A stretch of 32,504 nucleotides of DNA from Nautiliaceae bacterium (GCA_027011225.1 JALVAK010000043.1:1-32504), one strand, 5' to 3'; positions 10,856-22,577 are shown, counted from the stretch's first letter. Program-made: numbers and translations. The notes: generated by a model from the sequence alone, not told the origin.

Positions 10856-11752
10856 TTATTCTCCTTCTATATATTTTGTAGCATTTATTGCTGCAACTGC
10901 TCCATCGCCTGCTGCTGCAACGACTTGTTTTACGCTATTTTCTCTTATATCACCTGCTGCATAAAGTCCTTTTCTTGAAGTTTCCATATTTAGATTAACT
11001 TTAACTTCTCCCCATTCGTTAAGCTCTACTAAATCTTTTACTAATTCATTATTTACTTTCATACCAACAAATACAAATACTCCATCAACTCTAAGCTCTT
11101 TTCCTGAAGATAGAATTATACCTTCTACAAACTCTTTTCCAAATACTTTTTTTACTGTTTCATTAAAAATTATCTCAATATTTGGAGTGTTGAAAACTTT
11201 TTTTTGAGTGTGAGGAGCTGCACGAAATTTATCACGTCTATGAATTAAATAAACTTTTTTGGCGATTTTACTTAAATATAAAGCTTCTTCAAGTGCGGTA
11301 TCACCACCTCCTACTACTGCTACTATTTTATCTTTATAGAAAAATCCATCACATACCGCACAATAACTTACACCTCTTCCTATAAATTCTTCTTCACCCT
11401 CAAAGCCCGCTCTTTTAGGGGTTGCACCTGTAGCAACAATAATAGCTTTAGCTTCATATTCATTATTATGAGTTTTTATCTTATATTTCTTTTCATTAGG
11501 AATTATTTTTGTTACTTCTTCACTTTTTATTTCTGCTCCAAATCTTTTAGCTTGCTCTGGCCAGCATGCCATGAATTCAATTCCGCTTTTTGGCTCGCAA
11601 ACTCCAGGATAATTTTCAATTTCACTACTAAGAGTAATTTGTCCTCCTGGATTTAATTTCTCTAAAATTAAAGTTTTTGCACCAAGTCTGCTTGCATATA
11701 TTCCGCTACTAAGTCCAGCAGGACCTGCACCTACTATGATAATGTCATACAT
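10856..11752 (-). CDS. trxB: Thioredoxin reductase
   Basis: GAGPAGLSSGIYASR, CAVCDG active site, GGGDTALEEA, AAGDIR. Confidence 0.95.
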   Translation of the reverse strand: MYDIIIVGAGPAGLSSGIYASRLGAKTLILEKLNPGGQITLSSEIENYPGVCEPKSGIEFMACWPEQAKRFGAEIKSEEVTKIIPNEKKYKIKTHNNEYEAKAIIVATGATPKRAGFEGEEEFIGRGVSYCAVCDGFFYKDKIVAVVGGGDTALEEALYLSKIAKKVYLIHRRDKFRAAPHTQKKVFNTPNIEIIFNETVKKVFGKEFVEGIILSSGKELRVDGVFVFVGMKVNNELVKDLVELNEWGEVKVNLNMETSRKGLYAAGDIRENSVKQVVAAAGDGAVAAINATKYIEGE

Positions 11753-11797
11753 TTTTTTTCCTTTAAAGTAAAATATAAAAATCTAAATTTTCATATC

Positions 11798-12178
11798 TTA
11801 CTTTAAAACTTCAAGTGGGCTATCTTGTTTATATACATTTTTGTGATATTTTTTAATTTTTAATACTACTGGCACCTCATAAATATTTAGATATTGTATT
11901 AGTTTAATTATAGTATTTATTCCTGCTGTTGTATATATAACATTTTTGTAATTTTTTCTTTTTTGATAGATATCTACTGCAATTATTGGATAATCTTTTG
12001 GGATTTTTTTTATTAAGTCATCTAGATTTGACATATGAGAGCTAAATATTAAAAGATAATACTCTTTTTTTTGAGGTTTAAAAATGTCATTTTTAGTATA
12101 AAAGATTAATTTATCAAAATCAATAAATTTGTATTGATGAAATTTATAATTGTAATAGAAGAAAAATGCAGCTACCAT
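11798..12178 (-). CDS. Hypothetical protein, possible CxxC-less thioredoxin-fold domain
   Basis: Hydrophobic N-terminus, then YYLLIFSSHMSNLDDLIKKIP...PIIAVDIYQ...TTAGINTIIKLIQYLNIYEVPVVLKIK; located between trxA and trxB. Confidence 0.55.
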   Translation of the reverse strand: MVAAFFFYYNYKFHQYKFIDFDKLIFYTKNDIFKPQKKEYYLLIFSSHMSNLDDLIKKIPKDYPIIAVDIYQKRKNYKNVIYTTAGINTIIKLIQYLNIYEVPVVLKIKKYHKNVYKQDSPLEVLK

Positions 12179-12228
12179 TAATGCTCCAAAAAAGGAGCTA
12201 AAGGTATAAAAAAATTTAGATTTTATCC

Positions 12229-12552
12229 TTATTCTCCAAGAAGTGCGTTAATTTTTTCTTCATACATAGCTTTTGGAGCAGCTCCAATCATGCTATCTAC
12301 TAATTCTCCATTTTTGAAAAATAATACAGTTGGAATACTTCTAATTCCAAATTGCATTGCAAGCTCTTGCTCTTCATCAGTGTTTACTTTTCCAACAACT
12401 ACACCTTTGTCTTTGTATTCTTCGCTTAACTCTTCAATAATTGGAGCTACCATTCTACAAGGACCACACCATGGTGCCCAAAAATCCACTACTGCAACTT
12501 TTGCATTTTTAATTGTATCTACGAAATTATCTTTTGTTAATTCTATTGCCAT
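12229..12552 (-). CDS. trxA: Thioredoxin
   Basis: VDFWAPWCGPCRM active site, RSIPTVLFFKNG. Confidence 0.97.
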   Translation of the reverse strand: MAIELTKDNFVDTIKNAKVAVVDFWAPWCGPCRMVAPIIEELSEEYKDKGVVVGKVNTDEEQELAMQFGIRSIPTVLFFKNGELVDSMIGAAPKAMYEEKINALLGE

Positions 12553-12596: not shown

Positions 12597-12785
12597 TTAT
12601 TCATTAACAGCTGCTGTTTTTTTGAATTTAAGTGATAAAACTATAAATCTTATGGCTTGCCAGATTATACATCTTCTTTTCCATCTCTCAAATGGAGTAG
12701 GATACATTCCAAATTTAGTCTCATCATATGCTCTTAATTCCCATTCTTTTATTTTTAATCCAATTTGTGGACTTTTAATTGCCAT
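12597..12785 (-). CDS. Small conserved-looking protein downstream of sqr-like gene
   Basis: 62 aa ORF 13 bp after the SQR-like gene, preceded by an SD-like AAAGGAG; basic and partly hydrophobic (RCIIWQAIRFIVLSLKF). Confidence 0.6.
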   Translation of the reverse strand: MAIKSPQIGLKIKEWELRAYDETKFGMYPTPFERWKRRCIIWQAIRFIVLSLKFKKTAAVNE

Positions 12786-12798
12786 TATATCTCCTTTT

Positions 12799-14268
12799 TT
12801 AATCTGGAATTAGATACCAAAATGGTTTTGCTTTTGCTTTCCATAAAAATACATGATGCATTAACCATTTAAACCAGTGCCCAGCACTACCAACTTCACC
12901 AATTGTATATTTTACATCTCTACCAAAGTCTGGATATTTTTTAAAGTCTGGGATTGTAGGATAAACTGACATACTTCCAGCAATTCCTCTAAATCCATAA
13001 CTAATAGATACGACACAAATACTTGCAATCTCACCCATGCTCGCTTTATGTCTAAATGATGGTTTCCCCTCAAGTATCCACTCAGCAATATTTAAAGCTG
13101 TTGCGTGCGCCATAACTGCACTTGGCATTCCCGTTCTTGGAGGTGCTGGTGTTAGTGGTCTACCTGATTTTGTAGTATGAGGCATTGATATTGGATGAGG
13201 AGGTGCAAATGCAATACCTACTGCAAAAATATTTGGATATGTTGGATTTTGTAATTTTTTAGGCCAATCTTCTGCGCCCCATTCATGATAAGGTTTTTTT
13301 GCACTCTCATAATCTGCATCTACTATCATTAATCCATTTGGTTTGAATAATTTATCAGTATAATCTTCTCCATTTGGACCAACTGCTTTAATCCCAACTC
13401 CAGAAAATGGAGGAATTAGCATTGCAAAATCATATTCAACTTCTTTTTCTTCACCTTCATATGTTTCATAATATACTTTTCCAGGCTCTACTTTGTAAAC
13501 ACTAGCTTTTGTAATCCAATCAACCCCATATTCACTAAACATTGAGCGGATTACATTATTAGTATGCGAGATATATCCATTATTTTTTACATAAGCACCA
13601 CCAAGACCCAAATCACCTAAGAACATTTCATTTGTAATATAAGTTACATCAATATAGTCTAAAAGGTCTAAATCATATACTAAAGAGGCAACATTCATTG
13701 TATATTCAACTGCTGCTCCTTGGCAGGTACATCCTCCATGTCCAAGACCTATTAAAACTTTTTGTTTTTGACCTTTTTTTGCTTTTTCAATTACTTTGCT
13801 AAGCTCATTCCATGCATGAGCTGCATGGTCATAGCTACAAACTGAGACTGTATTACCTGTATCTGGTCCAAGCCCAGGAGTAGCTGAGAAATTTAATTTT
13901 GGTCCTGTTGCATTTATTAAAAAGTCATAATATACTTTTTCTTTTTGACCTTTTTTATTCCCACTTACATATTCTATTGTAACATAAGGTTTATTCTCAC
14001 CTGCATCACCTTCTGGATGAATTGTAAGTGCTTTTGCTTGTTTAAAATCAATTCCAAGTTTTTCGTATACTGGTGCAAGCTCAAAGTATACATCTTCTGG
14101 TTTCATATATCCAGTACCAACCCAGATATTTGATGGAACCCATTGATAGTTTTTATTTGGAGAAACTACAATAATTTCTGCGTTATTTTTAAGTTTATGT
14201 TTTAGATTTAAAGCCGCTGTATGACCAGAAATTCCAGCTCCTAATACTAATACTTTTGGTTTTGCCAT
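12799..14268 (-). CDS. sqr: SQR/FCSD-family FAD-dependent oxidoreductase (sulfide:quinone oxidoreductase-like)
   Basis: GAGISGHTAALNLK dinucleotide-binding motif, Cys-containing segments VCSYDH, GHGGCTCQGAA and SICVV, C-terminal aromatic/basic amphipathic region. Confidence 0.8.
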   Translation of the reverse strand: MAKPKVLVLGAGISGHTAALNLKHKLKNNAEIIVVSPNKNYQWVPSNIWVGTGYMKPEDVYFELAPVYEKLGIDFKQAKALTIHPEGDAGENKPYVTIEYVSGNKKGQKEKVYYDFLINATGPKLNFSATPGLGPDTGNTVSVCSYDHAAHAWNELSKVIEKAKKGQKQKVLIGLGHGGCTCQGAAVEYTMNVASLVYDLDLLDYIDVTYITNEMFLGDLGLGGAYVKNNGYISHTNNVIRSMFSEYGVDWITKASVYKVEPGKVYYETYEGEEKEVEYDFAMLIPPFSGVGIKAVGPNGEDYTDKLFKPNGLMIVDADYESAKKPYHEWGAEDWPKKLQNPTYPNIFAVGIAFAPPHPISMPHTTKSGRPLTPAPPRTGMPSAVMAHATALNIAEWILEGKPSFRHKASMGEIASICVVSISYGFRGIAGSMSVYPTIPDFKKYPDFGRDVKYTIGEVGSAGHWFKWLMHHVFLWKAKAKPFWYLIPD

Positions 14269-14388: not shown

Positions 14389-14409
14389 ACGCAGATTAAT
14401 GCTCTGCGT
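14389..14409 (-). terminator. Stem-loop at the end of the psrC-like gene, probable terminator
   Basis: Perfect 7-bp stem ACGCAGA-GCATTAA-TCTGCGT on the minus strand; the loop contains the TAA stop codon; weak U-rich tail. Confidence 0.5.
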
Positions 14410-15700
14410 TGTCGTTGATGTTTCTTACATCAAGAAGAGAATCTAAGATAGAGTAGATTGCAATTCCAAGACCTACACACCCAATGATAATTAAAATTTC
14501 CATTGTGTGAGGCGGTACGTATGCATATGGAGGTACATATTCAAGTTGATATGAGCTTGTTGCTTCTGGTCCTAATCCAAATCTATTTGTCATAGGATAA
14601 ATATTTCCACCATAAATAAATGCTAATCTCATTAAGAAAGTACCAATTAAAGCTGAAATTGCTCCAAGTAATGCCGCTGCTGGTTTTTGAGTTAACCAAA
14701 GGATTAAAGGTACTGCAATACCAAGTACTATCCATCCCCAATACATCCAGCTAATAGGGCTTCCATGCATAATTAAATTCATCCATCTAGGGTCAACACT
14801 CATAAAATTAATTATTTCATAAAGTGCTGCTAAGATAGTAAGTACTACTCCCATTTTTGAAGCAGTTTTTATCATATCTTCAAAATATGGTTTATTTCTA
14901 AGCCCTAGGAATGCAAAAAGTATTGCTCCAGCAACACCAGTTAATGCACCACTGATTAAGAAATAAATCCAAAGTTGTGGAATATCAGTCCAAAGATGTC
15001 TTGGTACGTTTAGATTAAATAAGATACCTTGGATATAAAATTCTGCTAAGTCAATTAAGATACCCAATATAACTAAAATTAATGCAAATTTTTTAGCTAA
15101 ATCTTTTTTGTATGTTAAAAGGAAATAAATTTCAATCAATGTAAATGGAATATAGATACTATAAAGCGGTAACATCATCCACATACCACTTTGTGGTTGA
15201 GGATTAAGAATCATCCAATAAATATTAAGTGGATTTCCCCAGTCGCTAGCGATTGATGTCATACCACCAAGAACCATTGCTAAACCAAAAGTCATAAGAG
15301 CTGCTGCTACTTTTGGCGCAATTTTTACATGGAAAAGCTCAGCCAATGCTACTAAGAAAATAAGTGCACTACCACCATAGAGAAGATAAGTATATTGCGA
15401 TACAAAAATACCCCAAGGGTCTGCTTTTTTTACTTCTTCTATTTCATTTAGATTAAAAATTTGCTCTTTTAGTGCTTCTGCTAGCATTTTTGCATGGTCA
15501 CTTGCTGCACCGCCTGCTTCAATAATTTCTCTATTGTTTACAAAATCATGGAAAAATCTTAGATGGTATATTTCATACCATCCAATAAGACCAATTGCAA
15601 GTAAAATATAAGCTACAATCATAGTTTTGTTAAAAAGTAACTCTTTTAAACTTACCTTTTTTATATTTAAACCGCAACATTTTGTATATTCAGCTGCCAT
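14396..15700 (-). CDS. NrfD/PsrC-family integral membrane subunit
   Basis: Multiple TM helices, NrfD/PsrC-like; directly downstream of PsrB-like and PsrA-like genes. Confidence 0.87.
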   Translation of the reverse strand: MAAEYTKCCGLNIKKVSLKELLFNKTMIVAYILLAIGLIGWYEIYHLRFFHDFVNNREIIEAGGAASDHAKMLAEALKEQIFNLNEIEEVKKADPWGIFVSQYTYLLYGGSALIFLVALAELFHVKIAPKVAAALMTFGLAMVLGGMTSIASDWGNPLNIYWMILNPQPQSGMWMMLPLYSIYIPFTLIEIYFLLTYKKDLAKKFALILVILGILIDLAEFYIQGILFNLNVPRHLWTDIPQLWIYFLISGALTGVAGAILFAFLGLRNKPYFEDMIKTASKMGVVLTILAALYEIINFMSVDPRWMNLIMHGSPISWMYWGWIVLGIAVPLILWLTQKPAAALLGAISALIGTFLMRLAFIYGGNIYPMTNRFGLGPEATSSYQLEYVPPYAYVPPHTMEILIIIGCVGLGIAIYSILDSLLDVRNINDNAEH

Positions 15701-15709
15701 GTTAGCTCC

Positions 15710-16381
15710 TTACGCTTTTTTCCACTCAGGTTTTTTAGCCTGAGCAGCTGCATCATAAAGTGGTTTAATTTCATCCCATGTATGAAATTTTATTCCTTCA
15801 CCAAGTGTTCTTTTTGCAAATTCTTCATCTTGTGGCACAAGATAGAATAGTTTTGGAAGTGTTCCTTCATCTTCTTTTAAGAAGAAGAATTTTCTTTGTT
15901 TTAAAAGATTTACAATATCAGAATTTTCATCTTCTAAATCACCAAATGTTCTAACTTTTGTAGGACATGTTGCACTACAAGCAGTTGTACCATATTCTTG
16001 AACTCTTCCATCACAGAATGTACATTTATCAACTGCATGTCTTGTTTCATCTACAAATCTTGCATCATACGGACATGCTTCCATACAACCTTTACAAATG
16101 ATACACATACTATAATCAACTTTTACTATTCCACCTTCTGCAAAGTGGCTTGCACCTGTTGGACAAACTGTTACACATGGTGCATCAATACAATGGTTAC
16201 ATTGACTTGGATAGAAGTTTACGAATAAATCGCTTAGTGTTTGTCCACCTTCTACTAAACCTACCCAAATTCTTTGTTTATCTGCACCAATCATAACTCC
16301 ATTTTCATCTTTACAAGCCACTTCACAAGCTCTACAATCGATACAATTTTGATATTCAAGTGCTATTGCATAGTTTGCCAT
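15710..16381 (-). CDS. 4Fe-4S ferredoxin-type electron-transfer subunit (PsrB/PhsB-like)
   Basis: Four cysteine clusters: CIDCRACEVACK, CNHCIDAPCVTVCP, CIICKGCMEACPYDAR, CTFCDG...CSATCPTK. Confidence 0.92.
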   Translation of the reverse strand: MANYAIALEYQNCIDCRACEVACKDENGVMIGADKQRIWVGLVEGGQTLSDLFVNFYPSQCNHCIDAPCVTVCPTGASHFAEGGIVKVDYSMCIICKGCMEACPYDARFVDETRHAVDKCTFCDGRVQEYGTTACSATCPTKVRTFGDLEDENSDIVNLLKQRKFFFLKEDEGTLPKLFYLVPQDEEFAKRTLGEGIKFHTWDEIKPLYDAAAQAKKPEWKKA

Positions 16382-16384
16382 GGC

Positions 16385-19096
16385 TTACACCTTTCTTATT
16401 TTTACTATAGTTTCATGCATACTTGCTGAACCAATAATAGGGTCTATTGAATTTGAGCAAATTATTGCTTGAGATACTCCGTTTTTATATCCTAGAGTTG
16501 CTGCTGGGTTTTGGTTACCAAATCCAGTTGCTATAAACATAGTATCTTTTCTAATTCTTTTTGTAGGATATACTCTAGCTCTTTCTGTTGCTTTAGTTTC
16601 TGGGTTATAAAGCTCAACTTCATCTTTGTATTTTAATCCAAGCTCTTTTGCTAATTCGTCATTAATCCATACATAGTTATAATTCATTAAGTCTAATAGT
16701 AGATAGTTATTAAAGTGCATACTTTGAGTAAAATATGCATGTCTTCCAAATACTATTCTTGCTTCACCTTTACTTGTATCAGGCTCTCTATAAAGTGAAT
16801 CTCTCCAAATTGGGAATTTTTTTAGTTTATCAAATTGATTAGTAAGTGGGTTTTTGAATGTTTTTCCATCAATATTGTGAAGTGCTACTTTTATATATTT
16901 TCCTTTTTTAGGAACAATGTGATAATCTTTTGGAAGTGCATAGTATTTGTCTAATACTTCATAAACTAATTCATGTTTGTTTGGCACATCTTTTTTAAAT
17001 GATTTATATTTTTCATCAAAAAGTCCAGATTTTACTGCTTTTTCAATTCCAGGCCAATATACTCCCCACTCATCTGCTACTTTTGCAGCTTCTTCTCCAT
17101 AAGTCTCTTCCATTGCTTTGTAGTTAAACTCATGTATTGGTTTGAAAGTTTTTGAAATCCAGAAAGTTTGAATATCTAAATCATCTTCGCTTGCATGCTC
17201 AAGAATTGCTTTTACAAGTTTAGGGTCTTTGATATCTTGTTTTAATTTTTCTACATTAATTGTAAAGTCATCATTTAAATATTTTGCTAAATCAAAATCT
17301 TTTGGAAGCTCAACGCCTAACTCATCAGCATCCCAAGTATATTTAAATGTAATTGCTGCAAGAGGTTTTTCAACTTTTTTTGCAAGAGTTTTACAAATAT
17401 CATACATATGTTTTCCACCTATTGCTTTTTCTTTTGCCTGATGTCTCCAAGCGATAAATGGATGTTTTATAGCAAATTGTTTAATAAGTGATTCTCTTTC
17501 TAGATATACCTTATCAGGTAAAATTACATCAGCATAAAGCAATGTATCAGTTGGTGCAATATCAATTGCTACAACTAAATCCATAGTTTTATACATTTCA
17601 GCTGTTTTTTCATATTCTGGTACTGATTGCATTGGATTTTGTTTATACTCAAACATTACTCTTATTGGATATTCACCTGGTTTTAGACCTTTATAGTTAC
17701 CGTTTTCATCAGGTCTTGGTCTTCCTGCTGCTATCCATCTTTTATTAATATCTAATACTACATCTCTAAAGATTGGCCAAGAACCTTTTGTTGGGTTTGC
17801 AAGTGGATATTCGCCTTTTGGAATAGTTGAAATATCAATTCTTGGTTTTGCGTTATCATAAATTGGGAAATCTTCATATTCATAACTTTCAGGTTTTTTA
17901 GGAAGACCACGTCCTAATAATACTCCACCAGGTCTATTTACACATCCATGAATTGAATTGAAAATTGCTTGAGCACGTCTGAATTCAAAATCTTGGAAAT
18001 ACCAAGTAGATTTTCTACTTCTATAGCAGTTTGCTGCACCTTTGTATTTTTCAGCAGCATCGCTAAATTCTTTTGTAATTCTTCTAATAGTGCTTGCTGG
18101 AATTTCAGTAATTTTTTCAGCCCACTCAGGCGTATATTTGCTACCTTCTCCAGTTGTAAAGAACTCTTCAAGCTCTTCAATTCCATCTACATATTTGTTT
18201 ATATAATCTTGTTTATATGGAGTTTTGTGATAGCCTTTATTTATTGTTTCATGAATCATAGCAAGCATTAGCGCTAAATCAGTTCCTGGTTTAATTGGGA
18301 TAAATTCATCTGCATGAGATGCAGTTTTTGTATATCTTACATCAATATATACAAATTTTTCAATTCCTCTTCCATGAGTGAATTTAAACATATCAAGTGT
18401 ATCAGGAGTAACAATACTCTCCGCTCTGTTTCCTCCAAGGTTTAAAATATATTTACATTCAGTAAAATCTGCTTGTCCCCAGCTACCAAAAGTTAGTTTG
18501 TTTGCAAGAAATGATGGTGCAAAACATGTTGTAAAGTGGTCAACAAAGTTTGGAGAACCAATACCATTCATTAAATTCATAAAAATAGGCTCTTCAAAAG
18601 TACCAGATGTAGCCCCAGCACCATATGCTACAGTTGAGCGGTTGTCTCTTTCTTCATCAATAATTTGTACAAGTTTTTTTGCAATATAATCAAATGCCTC
18701 TTCCCAAGTAGCTTCTCTAAACTTACCTTCGCCTTTTTCACCAACTCTGATTAAAGGTTTAGTAATTCTATCTGGGTCATATTCGCTAGCAATTCCAGCA
18801 TTACCTCTTGCACACATAAAGTTTCTGCTTTTTGGATAAAGTGGATGTGGCTCAATTTTTGTGATTTTGTCATCTACATTTCTTGGAACAATACCACACA
18901 TATTAACACACATTGCACAAACAGAAGGTATGTATTTTGCGTTTTTAATTTCTTCTTCTTTTTTGTTTTTTTCTTCTATTGCATCTTCATAAGGGCTAAA
19001 TGCAAATCCTAAAGAAGTTGCCATAGATGCCCCAGCTGCTGTTGCAGCAGATGTTTTTAGAAAATTTCTTCTTTTTAAGTCTACTATTTTAGACAT
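16385..19096 (-). CDS. Molybdopterin oxidoreductase catalytic subunit (polysulfide/thiosulfate reductase PsrA/PhsA-like)
   Basis: Tat signal RRNFLKTSAATAAG, N-terminal 4Fe-4S motif CAMCVNMCG...FMCARG, Mo-ligand-type Cys in HFTTCFAPS, C-terminal molydopterin dinucleotide-binding domain. Confidence 0.9.
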   Translation of the reverse strand: MSKIVDLKRRNFLKTSAATAAGASMATSLGFAFSPYEDAIEEKNKKEEEIKNAKYIPSVCAMCVNMCGIVPRNVDDKITKIEPHPLYPKSRNFMCARGNAGIASEYDPDRITKPLIRVGEKGEGKFREATWEEAFDYIAKKLVQIIDEERDNRSTVAYGAGATSGTFEEPIFMNLMNGIGSPNFVDHFTTCFAPSFLANKLTFGSWGQADFTECKYILNLGGNRAESIVTPDTLDMFKFTHGRGIEKFVYIDVRYTKTASHADEFIPIKPGTDLALMLAMIHETINKGYHKTPYKQDYINKYVDGIEELEEFFTTGEGSKYTPEWAEKITEIPASTIRRITKEFSDAAEKYKGAANCYRSRKSTWYFQDFEFRRAQAIFNSIHGCVNRPGGVLLGRGLPKKPESYEYEDFPIYDNAKPRIDISTIPKGEYPLANPTKGSWPIFRDVVLDINKRWIAAGRPRPDENGNYKGLKPGEYPIRVMFEYKQNPMQSVPEYEKTAEMYKTMDLVVAIDIAPTDTLLYADVILPDKVYLERESLIKQFAIKHPFIAWRHQAKEKAIGGKHMYDICKTLAKKVEKPLAAITFKYTWDADELGVELPKDFDLAKYLNDDFTINVEKLKQDIKDPKLVKAILEHASEDDLDIQTFWISKTFKPIHEFNYKAMEETYGEEAAKVADEWGVYWPGIEKAVKSGLFDEKYKSFKKDVPNKHELVYEVLDKYYALPKDYHIVPKKGKYIKVALHNIDGKTFKNPLTNQFDKLKKFPIWRDSLYREPDTSKGEARIVFGRHAYFTQSMHFNNYLLLDLMNYNYVWINDELAKELGLKYKDEVELYNPETKATERARVYPTKRIRKDTMFIATGFGNQNPAATLGYKNGVSQAIICSNSIDPIIGSASMHETIVKIRKV

Positions 19097-19142
19097 CTAA
19101 ACTCCTTTTTTAATTTTACATTCATATATTCTTTAAAAATAG

Positions 19143-19158
19143 TGCTTAAAAAGTGCCA
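19143..19158 (-). promoter_or_regulatory. Candidate sigma-54 (-24/-12) element upstream of the psrA-like gene
   Basis: Minus strand TGGCAC-TTTTT-AAGCA: exact GG-N10-GC spacing, predicted TSS about 36 nt before the ATG. Confidence 0.35.
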
Positions 19159-19169
19159 AAAAGGCACTT
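19151..19169 (-). terminator. Rho-independent terminator-like hairpin after the porin gene
   Basis: Minus strand AAGTGCC-TTTTT-GGCACTT followed by TTT; 7-bp perfect stem 14 nt after the porin stop. Confidence 0.6.
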
Positions 19170-19183
19170 ATAAGAAAAACTTA

Positions 19184-20581
19184 TTAAAAGCTGTATCTAA
19201 TATAAGCTCTTATATCCATAGCGTCTTTAACTACTGGTTGAGGAGTAGGTTTATCTACATCTAAAGGAGCTCCATAATCTCCAAAAAATCCATCACTTCC
19301 AGAGTAGTTATATTTAATATAAGTTGCTCTAATACCAGTTGTTAAATTATCAAGTAAATAGTGATGATAATATACTTCATAAGCATTACCTCTTGTAGCT
19401 GCAATACTTCCAATTAATGTATCTTCTCCCCAAGTCATAGCTCTATAGTATTTGCTTCCATGAACAAAGTTAAAGCCCCATCTATCATTACTATCTTCAC
19501 TTGCTGGGAAGTTTCCTCCAATCCAAATAGACCATCCAGATTTAGAATCATAGCTTCCAAGCATTCTTTTATTAGATTTTGGGTCAGTTTTTGTATAAGC
19601 CCAAGAGATAAATGCTTTTGAATCATCTAAGAAATCACTTATACCATCGCCAATTCCATCAGCTTTAAAGATAATATTTGTTCCCATAAATGAGCCTAAG
19701 TCATCTAATGGCTCGTTTGTATCTTGATTATATCCTTTTACATTCCAAGCCCAAATTTGCTCCCACCATACTGAATATTGACCATCATTGTATGGAACAA
19801 GTAAAAATCCGCCAAAGTCAGTAATTTTATGCCCATCTTTAGCATAAGGTGTTCCAGCTTGATTGAATTTACCAATTGAGCTTGAATATCCTCTACCAAA
19901 ACAGAATTTAAGGTTAGTTCCCCAGTCGCTAAATTTATCACTTAAGTCTGAGAAGAATTCATTTTTAATCCAAAAACTAATTCCATCAAATTCCATATTT
20001 ACAAGATGAGCAATTGGGCTCTCAGCTCTAACATTATCTCTTAAATTTGCTGGATATCCTTCAGTTGAAGGTCTTCTACCAGTTGATAGCATAAATTTGC
20101 CATCTCCAAAATACCAGTTAAAATATGCTTCTTGAACTCTTAAAATTGTATCATCTGGAGTCTCACTAGCAGTCCAGTTTGAGTTATCATAAGCGGGATT
20201 TTCTTGACCTATATTCATTCCATAGATATTATAAGCTACAAGTCTTAAATTACCTTTTAAATTATCATTTGGCTTTGCTACAGCTTCTAGCGCAACTTTG
20301 TTTGAGAGAATATTATTTGTTTTCTTATCTCCATCATTTAGCTTATATTTGATAAAGTCAAAATTTGTTTGAATAGAATAAGACCAATATAAATGGTCAT
20401 TTGCAGCAAATGGAGATGCTTTTTTATCAGCAGTTAGTGCTAATTTTTTATTTTCTTTAACCTGTTTTTCAAGTTTTGCTATTTTTGCTTTTAGCGCTTC
20501 AATCTCTTTTTGGAGCTCATTATTTGAATTAGCTGCAAAAAGTGAAGCTATTGCAAGAGTTGAAACTAACAACTTTTTCAT
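19184..20581 (-). CDS. Coiled-coil outer-membrane porin (DUF3373-like, Campylobacterota type)
   Basis: Signal peptide, coiled coil NELQKEIEALKAKIAKLEKQVKENKK, beta-barrel-like repeats, terminal aromatic YIRYSF. Confidence 0.8.
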   Translation of the reverse strand: MKKLLVSTLAIASLFAANSNNELQKEIEALKAKIAKLEKQVKENKKLALTADKKASPFAANDHLYWSYSIQTNFDFIKYKLNDGDKKTNNILSNKVALEAVAKPNDNLKGNLRLVAYNIYGMNIGQENPAYDNSNWTASETPDDTILRVQEAYFNWYFGDGKFMLSTGRRPSTEGYPANLRDNVRAESPIAHLVNMEFDGISFWIKNEFFSDLSDKFSDWGTNLKFCFGRGYSSSIGKFNQAGTPYAKDGHKITDFGGFLLVPYNDGQYSVWWEQIWAWNVKGYNQDTNEPLDDLGSFMGTNIIFKADGIGDGISDFLDDSKAFISWAYTKTDPKSNKRMLGSYDSKSGWSIWIGGNFPASEDSNDRWGFNFVHGSKYYRAMTWGEDTLIGSIAATRGNAYEVYYHHYLLDNLTTGIRATYIKYNYSGSDGFFGDYGAPLDVDKPTPQPVVKDAMDIRAYIRYSF

Positions 20582-20623
20582 TTTTTACTCCTTGAATGTT
20601 TTTAAGAAGAGGGGGAAGTGGTA

Positions 20624-20977
20624 TCAACCACATCCTGCAGGGATTTTTCCGTTCATTACGCCAACTAAGAAATCTTCTAAATCTTTTAGTTTTCCTTTTT
20701 TAGCAAGTTTTTCTACTGCTGCTGCAGCTTTATCTTTTCCTGCTGCTTTTAATTTTTCAATTAAAGGTTTTCCATTGTCTTTAAATAAAGCTTTTAGCTC
20801 ATCTGGAGTTTGAACACCTAAAACTTTAATAAACTCAGGTGCTTTAATGTGAGCTTTTCTTTTGATGTATTTTGAATAGTATTTATAACCTTTGTTGTAA
20901 TCTGCAAGCGCTGCTGTTGCTGTAAAAGATAGAGCAATTGCACCTGCTACAAAAAGTCTTGATAACTTCATTTTCAC
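20624..20977 (-). CDS. Small exported protein with a single C-terminal Cys
   Basis: Signal peptide ending ATAALA, GYKYYSKYIKRKAHIKAPEFIKVLGV...DFLVGVMNGKIPAGCG; SD AAAGGAG and upstream TATAAT. Confidence 0.75.
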   Translation of the reverse strand: MKMKLSRLFVAGAIALSFTATAALADYNKGYKYYSKYIKRKAHIKAPEFIKVLGVQTPDELKALFKDNGKPLIEKLKAAGKDKAAAAVEKLAKKGKLKDLEDFLVGVMNGKIPAGCG

Positions 20978-21001
20978 TCCTTTAAATTTTGTTGACTACA
21001 A

Positions 21002-21007
21002 ATTATA
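21002..21007 (-). promoter_or_regulatory. Putative -10 (TATAAT) for the small exported protein/porin transcript
   Basis: Minus strand GCAATATAATTTG about 25 nt upstream of the ATG. Confidence 0.5.
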
Positions 21008-21090
21008 TTGCTTTAAACTTAAACTTTTCTTAAATTAAGATTCAAAATCTCTGAATTTGATAAAAAAAGTTAAATTTATATTAATTTTGA

Positions 21091-22461
21091 TTAAAACTTA
21101 TATCTGATATAAGCTCTAATATCATATGCTTTATTAACATAATCAGGTTGATTAGGCTCAGAGCTTATACCAAAGAAACCTTCACTTCCCGAATTATTAT
21201 AATTTAGATAAGTTACTCTAAGACCTGTTGTTAAGTGAGGGATAATTTCTTTATTGTAATATAAATCATAAGCATTACCTCTAACAGCGGCGATACTTCC
21301 TACCAGAGTATCTTCACCGTAAGTCATAGCTCTAAAATATTTAGTTCCGTGGACGTAATTGAATCCCCAAGTGTCATTATTGCTAATTCCTGGCATTTGA
21401 GCGCCAATCCATATTGAAGCTCCTATTTTGCTTTTTTTTGAGCCTTGCATTTGTTTATTAGAATAAGGCATAGTTTTAGTAAAAGCAAAATCAATAAATG
21501 CAGTAGTGCTATCAAGAAAATCGCTTATACCATCACCAATGCCTCTGGCTCTAAAGTTGATATCTTCACCAAAATAATCACCCAAATCACTCATTTTATT
21601 TATTAAATAATCTGCGTAAGTATTATAACCTTTCATATTCCAAGCCCAGACGGTTTCTGTCCATAAAGCATATTGTCCATCATCATATGGTACCAATACA
21701 AATCCTACAAAATCAGTAATTCCTAAATTATCTTTTGAATAAGGATATTTACTGAATTTCCCTGTTGAGCTTGAGTAACCCCGTCCAGCACAAAATTTAA
21801 GCCATGTTCCAAATTCTGCGAATTTATTATTTAAATTGCTAAAAAAATCGTTTGAAATTTCAAAGCTAAATCCGTCAAATTCTATATTAATTAAGTGAGC
21901 TAGAGGAGAGCTTGCATTATCATTATAGATTAAATTTTCAGGAAAACCCTCAGTAGCAGGTCTTCTTCCTGCACTAAACATAAGGGCGTTATCAGCTCCG
22001 AAATGATAATTGAAAAATGCTTGTTTAACTCTTAAAATAGTATCATCAGGTGTTTCATTTGCAACCCATGATATATTTTGATAAGGTGAATATTGCTCTT
22101 GTGAATTCATACCAAAAATGTTGTTTGCCTCAATTACAAGCGTTGCTTTTAAATTATCAGCAGGTCTTGCTACTCCTGTTAATATAACTCTGTTTGAGAG
22201 AATGTTATTTACATATTTTTTGTGTGATTTTGTTTTGTAATGTATGTAATCGAGTGCAGTTCTTAAATCATAAGAGCAATATAAATGATTATTTGCGTAA
22301 AGCGGATTTACTTTTTTATTGGCATCCTCTGCTAATTGTTTGTTAATTTTTACCTGTTTTTCTAAATTAGTAATTTTAGCTTTTAAATTTTCAATTTCAG
22401 TTTGTAGATTTTGTGAAAAGAGAAGAGAAAATGCAAATGAGCTCATTAGTAGCTTTTTCAT
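21091..22461 (-). CDS. Second coiled-coil outer-membrane porin, paralog of 19184-20581
   Basis: Same architecture and shared blocks (ILSN+VAL/ETPDDTILRV/EFDG/GRGYSSS/DDGQY/GEDTLVGSIAAVRGNAY/DIRAYIRYKF). Confidence 0.8.
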   Translation of the reverse strand: MKKLLMSSFAFSLLFSQNLQTEIENLKAKITNLEKQVKINKQLAEDANKKVNPLYANNHLYCSYDLRTALDYIHYKTKSHKKYVNNILSNRVILTGVARPADNLKATLVIEANNIFGMNSQEQYSPYQNISWVANETPDDTILRVKQAFFNYHFGADNALMFSAGRRPATEGFPENLIYNDNASSPLAHLINIEFDGFSFEISNDFFSNLNNKFAEFGTWLKFCAGRGYSSSTGKFSKYPYSKDNLGITDFVGFVLVPYDDGQYALWTETVWAWNMKGYNTYADYLINKMSDLGDYFGEDINFRARGIGDGISDFLDSTTAFIDFAFTKTMPYSNKQMQGSKKSKIGASIWIGAQMPGISNNDTWGFNYVHGTKYFRAMTYGEDTLVGSIAAVRGNAYDLYYNKEIIPHLTTGLRVTYLNYNNSGSEGFFGISSEPNQPDYVNKAYDIRAYIRYKF

Positions 22462-22527: not shown

Positions 22528-22577
22528 TTGCTTAAGTTTCGCTTAAAAATTAACCTAAGTATTGTTTAAAGATTTGG

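Follow-up and report, generated by a model that had tools for sequence, protein, structure and literature searches.

A Nautiliaceae psr locus with DUF3373 porins and a small exported protein of a candidate C-terminal-selenocysteine family

The PsrABC enzyme of Wolinella succinogenes consists of a molybdoenzyme exported by the twin-arginine translocation (Tat) pathway, an iron-sulfur (FeS) subunit and an NrfD subunit. The same composition is described for Nautilia profundicola (GAmH_1483-1485) and for Nautilia PV-1 (C3L23_RS07870-80), where a sulfide-quinone reductase (SQR; RS07885) adjoins PsrC (PMC2628731, PMC10092268). A locus of this composition was analysed in a deep-sea vent bacterium of the Nautiliaceae (Campylobacterota) on a stretch of 32,504 nucleotides (GCA_027011225.1, JALVAK010000043.1:1-32504; hereafter the window), i.e., contig C43 of a 1.64 Mb genome, 91% complete, whose closest named relatives are Nautiliaceae metagenome-assembled genomes (MAGs). 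Here, the psr genes are accompanied by two genes for DUF3373 porins and one for a small exported protein whose terminal cysteine (Cys) is apparently exchanged for selenocysteine (Sec) in relatives; the published accounts of known PsrABC loci that were found make no mention of an adjoining porin or small Cys/Sec protein. At slightly below an even chance, we read the locus as genes for sulfur/polysulfide respiration together with an envelope sulfur-handling module whose Cys/Sec tail would feed PsrA.

The PsrABC-like enzyme

All genes of the locus lie on the minus strand, in the order porin 2, small exported protein, porin 1, psrA, psrB, psrC and SQR-like gene. This order had been proposed in the initial annotation and was borne out; the range given there, starting at 14396, left the SQR-like gene just outside. 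As the same order recurs in relatives, it is not due to chance. The PsrA-like molybdoenzyme (16385-19096) scored above the Pfam cut-offs for TAT_signal, Molybdop_Fe4S4, Molybdopterin and Molydop_binding, and contains a Tat signal (RRNFLK), Fe-S cysteines and a [4Fe4S] domain (Pfam). Comparison with the PDB returned 2vpw as the best solved relative (E 6.5e-87), and Cys191 of PsrA, which aligns with a Cys of 2vpw, is by homology the putative molybdenum ligand. The catalytic subunit, Tat-exported and of the FeS/molybdenum-bis-molybdopterin guanine dinucleotide (Mo-bisMGD) type, shares its operon with a PsrB-like FeS subunit (15710-16381; Fer4_11 and related domains) and a PsrC-like NrfD membrane quinol subunit (14396-15700; PF03916/PF14589 over cut-off), as in PsrABC/PhsABC enzymes. 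The enzyme was named Psr/Phs-like because PsrA did not reach the score of the curated thiosulfate reductase PhsA equivalog (NF012032; 380 bits vs 694 required). A role in polysulfide or elemental sulfur (S0) reduction is likely, since no second Psr-type enzyme was found in the window genome and since S0 and polysulfide, but not sulfate and thiosulfate, serve N. profundicola as acceptors (PMC2628731).

The SQR-like flavoprotein (489 amino acids, aa; 12799-14268; Pyr_redox_2) is homologous to solved sulfide-quinone reductases in the PDB (E 1e-36), and none of the NCBIfam SQR models reached its cut-off. Genomes G014-G019 kept psr and are missing SQR; SQR was therefore ruled out as a defining locus member, being absent from several psr-bearing genomes and unlinked elsewhere, and is regarded as optional.

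The small exported protein and its Cys/Sec exchange

Comparisons were based on a survey of 60 relatives and the neighbourhoods of their genes, an even sample of 150 genomes of the phylum (17 with psr, 10 of these non-Nautiliaceae) and a wider set of 80 named DUF3373 loci; G and L numbers denote genomes and loci, respectively. The small gene occupies an open reading frame (ORF) at 20624-20977 (minus strand); judged by where the Shine-Dalgarno sequence lies, its more likely start is the ATG at 20971, which gives 115 aa (20624-20971). Its Cys114 (TGT, 20630-20632) is invariant in a 42-row alignment. The protein has no Pfam or NCBIfam model match, and its predicted fold, a confident helical bundle followed by a low-confidence C-terminal tail bearing Cys114, gave zero matches in a fold search against the PDB.

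The porin-linked set had suggested an invariant-Cys family, a view that was revised when the apparently Cys-less copies turned out to carry TGA at this position. Over all copies, the C-terminal codon is Cys in 90 and TGA in 13, never TAA or TAG. Eight TGA copies are located in or near selC loci (G003, G005, G006, G009, G011, G013, G014, G016), within about 0.6 kb of the Sec tRNA (tRNA-Sec); the remaining ones are porin-linked in G009 and G013, occur as further copies in G006 and G011, or belong to G044, a genome of a different family with the order SQR, PsrA, PsrB region, PsrC, small gene (TGA), tRNA-Sec. Among Nautiliaceae, tRNA-Sec was detected in 8/8 TGA-bearing genomes vs 2/12 others (Fisher p 0.0007). 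A hairpin resembling a Sec insertion sequence (SECIS), with a 6-bp stem and a GG loop 13-15 nt past the codon, follows 11 of the 13 TGA copies, 2 of the 90 Cys copies and 0.04% of shuffles, and compensatory changes were observed in all six stem pairs; Rfam did not list it, while listing tRNA-Sec at the same loci. Both hairpin-bearing Cys copies (G055, L217; G156, L218) have TGT, a GGT-loop hairpin on the 3' side and a position beside psr, and are perhaps former Sec genes.

Relatives hence display Cys/Sec exchange, a SECIS-like hairpin and tRNA-Sec together, the combination expected of a C-terminal-Sec protein. In the window genome (G000), no tRNA-Sec was found above 60 bits, and the window gene, with TGT, encodes a Cys homologue and not a Sec protein. 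The small protein is accordingly proposed as a candidate for a new C-terminal-Sec protein family, of which the window copy would be the Cys form. The family is absent from the table of a 2026 selenoprotein inventory (PMC13188914) and is not described in PMC4607533, as far as the accessible portions of both sources extend. The closest described case in the latter portion is DUF466 (KCU-star) of Epsilonproteobacteria, which likewise has Sec as the last residue, with UGA followed by the stop, and whose SECIS, a 5/6-bp hairpin with an invariant loop G, is matched by the small-gene hairpin (PMC4607533). DUF466 is nevertheless a different family, with a Cys-Sec tail and no export described in that portion (PMC4607533).

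That TGA might be a plain stop and the hairpin a terminator, selenocysteine being absent altogether, is very improbable. T-rich sequence does follow some of the hairpins, as this explanation would have it, but a long T run is missing past the hairpins of the G044 copy and of one G011 copy. Moreover, none of the 13 copies uses TAA or TAG although TAA makes up 67/90 stops in the small-gene loci, TGA appears only where tRNA-Sec is present, the hairpin is nearly missing after Cys copies, and it agrees with the epsilonproteobacterial SECIS as given in the accessible part of PMC4607533. With its covarying stem, GG loop and constant distance from the codon, the hairpin was rejected as a terminator on the grounds of position, covariation, loop and tRNA-Sec correlation.

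By profile search, the small-protein family is present in 46/150 genomes of the even sample, in 38 of them together with DUF3373 (small protein alone in 8, DUF3373 alone in 12; Fisher p 2e-17, uncorrected for phylogeny), and most of the DUF3373 genomes without it (12/50) have divergent DUF3373 only. In 6/10 non-Nautiliaceae psr genomes, no more than about 8 kb separates the small gene from psrA, and in G029 and G047 it stands within the psr operon, which makes the small protein a steadier partner of psr than the porin. The initial annotation was right that a small exported protein is present, but treated it as an accessory, whereas it is the more informative part of the locus. A distant family member (L059, in G057) contains a CxxCH heme motif and ends in ...SGKVPSCG, which suggests kinship with c-type cytochromes. 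Pairs of the small gene and DUF3373 also occur outside Campylobacterota, in Neiella litorisoli (L134) and a Desulfobulbaceae MAG (L172), probably by transfer.

Sud, SoxY and DsrC carry sulfane sulfur on a Cys, which in SoxY and DsrC is located on a C-terminal arm. The small protein would resemble them in this use of a Cys and has zero sequence match to any of the three. Its all-helical model, with no Pfam match to the PF00581 rhodanese domain, separates it from Sud, and it has neither a Pfam/NCBIfam SoxY match nor a PDB fold match that would place it with SoxY.

DUF3373 porins and their linkage to psr

Porin 1 (19184-20581) and porin 2 (21091-22461), both on the minus strand, passed the PF11853 gathering score (cut-off 26.1) with 278 and 248 bits, respectively. 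Cys227 of porin 1 (codon 19901-19903; motif K-x-C-x-G) is invariant in a 50-row alignment and corresponds to Cys224 of porin 2. It is part of strand 223-231, in which alternation along L224-K225-F226-C227-F228 turns K225 and C227 to the same face and hydrophobic residues to the opposite one, so that Cys227 is probably lumen-facing. Porin 2, detected in the window genome and otherwise only in G002, the closest relative, was ruled out as a conserved part of the locus and is a local, genus-level duplicate. A separate MOMP-type porin in the window genome rules out DUF3373 as its only pore.

Two described groups of outer-membrane proteins are comparable. OprD/MOMP-like porins of Sulfurovum indicum that are induced on S0 have also been proposed as an outer-membrane S0 route; they belong to PF05538, in contrast to the DUF3373 porins of the window, and true S0 transport proteins lack experimental confirmation according to the same source (PMC10045233). 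The window porins' own family is TCDB 1.B.62 (putative bacterial OMPP, DUF3373), a pore-former by family listing, and the entry as available in PMC4827864 gives no sulfur role.

A DUF3373 gene is located immediately 5' of psrA in every surveyed Nautiliaceae genome with a contig covering the spot, except G010, and in G032 of a sister family. Outside Nautiliales, among the 80 named loci, a porin directly precedes a second type of psr operon in L110, L120, L132, L141 and L174, this type consisting of a PsrA of about 800 aa (34% identical to the window's), PsrB, PsrC, PsrA' and PsrB'; the porin is found within the psr operon in L143, divergent from PsrA/PsrB in L116, L127 and L149, and between the SQR gene and psrA in L115. 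The porins adjoining this second subtype come from several clades, with Sulfurimonas among the hosts. The periplasmic psrA1B1CDE of Sulfurimonas (cited in PMC10045233) apparently has the PsrA-B-C-PsrA'-B' arrangement of L110, matched by layout and not by accession; the L110-type operon has a DUF3373 porin before and a small gene after it, and its PsrA subtype is the one about 34% identical to the window's. The porin tree requires at least five changes of the label "psr-linked", and linkage was therefore repeatedly gained or lost. In the even sample, DUF3373 is present in 16/17 psr genomes vs 34/133 others (Fisher p 5e-8, uncorrected for phylogeny).

DUF3373 is also associated with FCSD/SQR-like flavoproteins, and with rhodanese together with type II molybdoenzymes; these partners, too, point to sulfur chemistry, short of proof. 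A Tat-exported FCSD/SQR-like flavoprotein is encoded directly 3' of DUF3373, with the small gene adjoining, in L137, L139, L140, L168 and L170. A type II DMSO-reductase-family enzyme is found a few genes from DUF3373 in L124, L130, L138, L144, L152, L156, L157 and L164, most of which also have a double-rhodanese protein and several an ethylbenzene-dehydrogenase-type cytochrome. A selU/mnmH-like gene is near DUF3373 in L087, L091 and L097, and G029 also has tRNA-Sec about 1.5 kb away.

Putative transcription signals divide the locus. A terminator-like hairpin (AAGTGCC-TTTTT-GGCACTT; 19151-19169, minus strand), seen in the sequence between porin 1 and psrA, has a short T tail in the window and T-tailed equivalents in nine related loci (L065-L074). 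A direct repeat, TTAAG-N6-TTAAG, precedes a TATAAT-like box by about 10 nt; the window has only two, 5' of the small gene (TTAAGAAAAGTTTAAG; 21018-21033, minus strand) and 5' of porin 2 (TTAAGCGAAACTTAAG; 22531-22546, minus strand), out of 20 in 528 kb of strand. It is found 5' of every complete small gene in Nautiliaceae psr loci, of porin 2 and of several selC-linked copies, never 5' of porin 1, psrA or SQR, and 5' of none of 47 small genes outside Nautiliales. Because of the conserved hairpins and the separate promoter boxes, a single operon from porin 2 to SQR was rejected, and the locus is probably not one operon. The 11-bp repeat period suggests that an OmpR-type regulator reads the box, through which porin and small protein are probably controlled apart from psrABC. 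A scan for generic sigma-70 promoters gave no information, with 60 found against 53 expected.

Beyond psr, the block conserved in Nautiliaceae comprises thioredoxin, a 126-aa protein, thioredoxin reductase, dapB and purF to one side and RluD and ffh to the opposite one. Almost all Nautiliales examined have, following psr, counterparts of the window genes for thioredoxin, the 126-aa membrane-anchored, family-less protein and thioredoxin reductase (10856-12552). A 62-aa ORF (12597-12785) with a good Shine-Dalgarno sequence immediately follows the SQR gene and was left unannotated by every tool used.

Proposed sulfur handling and alternatives

In the proposed mechanism, polysulfide or solubilised S0 would enter via the DUF3373 pore with its probably lumen-facing Cys. 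The small protein would take up or cleave sulfane sulfur with its Cys/Sec tail and hand it to PsrA, and PsrA would draw on quinol electrons, passed along by PsrC and PsrB, to form sulfide. The small protein would thereby act like Sud or like a swinging-arm carrier such as SoxY while belonging to neither. A flexible exported tail whose last residue alternates between Sec and Cys argues for reactive thiol/selenol chemistry, and uptake or cleavage of sulfane sulfur and its delivery to PsrA is the simplest reading of such a tail linked to Psr; the carrier step, its direction and the porin substrate are what we infer. A complete relay from the outer membrane to the periplasm, from lumen-thiol porin to Cys/Sec swinging tail to PsrA, with Sec encoded beside selC in some lineages, is somewhat unlikely.

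Several observations weigh against the proposed mechanism. A thiol reductase or peroxidase fits the Cys/Sec tail equally well. Direct porin-psrA adjacency was found in only 1/10 non-Nautiliaceae psr genomes of the even sample (G161), four further ones having porin and psrA 11-32 kb apart. Both DUF3373 and the small protein are also encoded at a distance from psr, where their neighbours are FCSD/SQR-like flavoproteins, type II molybdoenzymes or unrelated genes. The gene order in Nautiliaceae may in part reflect slow rearrangement, as the flanking housekeeping genes are syntenic there too. Val replaces the porin Cys in two divergent porins that keep the small partner, and strand alternation, without coordinates, is the basis for placing Cys227 towards the lumen.

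One alternative would make the DUF3373 proteins general-diffusion porins of the ordinary kind, stable neighbours by chance, and the small protein an unrelated envelope protein. The model of porin 1 (pLDDT 78) indeed matches the general porins PorB, OmpM1 and OmpF (PDB E ~1e-13), and syntenic housekeeping flanks and rare adjacency outside Nautiliales in the even sample are in keeping with it. Psr-linked porins of several clades, the separate MOMP porin, the near-invariant porin Cys and the strong co-occurrence with the small protein make this explanation unlikely. The claim of porins dedicated to the reductase, made in the initial annotation, is partly supported. The position of DUF3373 5' of psrA in almost every Nautiliaceae genome with a covering contig, and the several clades beside other psr operons, speak for it; the occurrence of DUF3373 without psr and the restriction of porin 2 to two genomes speak against it. 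The co-occurrence survey by which the claim was to be checked gave near-universal linkage within Nautiliaceae and, in the even sample, rare direct linkage outside. Alternatively, the small protein might serve periplasmic thiol/selenol redox chemistry or detoxification, reducing disulfides or peroxide or handling metals or selenium, and would not carry sulfur; the association with Psr would then reflect protection against reactive sulfur. Sec/Cys exchange characterises redox catalysis generally, many TGA-bearing genomes have the gene beside selC and not psr, and psr is missing from many loci; the gene's position inside or adjoining psr operons in G029, G044, G047, G055, G143, G156 and G161 speaks against this alternative, and we assign the redox or detoxification role a low probability.

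For the passage of sulfur across the outer membrane during sulfur respiration, the membrane proteins involved are without experimental confirmation (PMC10045233). In TGA-bearing genomes, ordinary gene calling stops one residue early at TGA, so that the active residue of the small protein is overlooked. The locus offers two concrete candidates with single mutable residues, Cys227 of the porin and Cys114 of the small protein, in a phylum predominating at vents. A Cys-bearing pore and a Cys/Sec small protein beside psr suggest that sulfur reaches the enzyme by a transfer route not described before.

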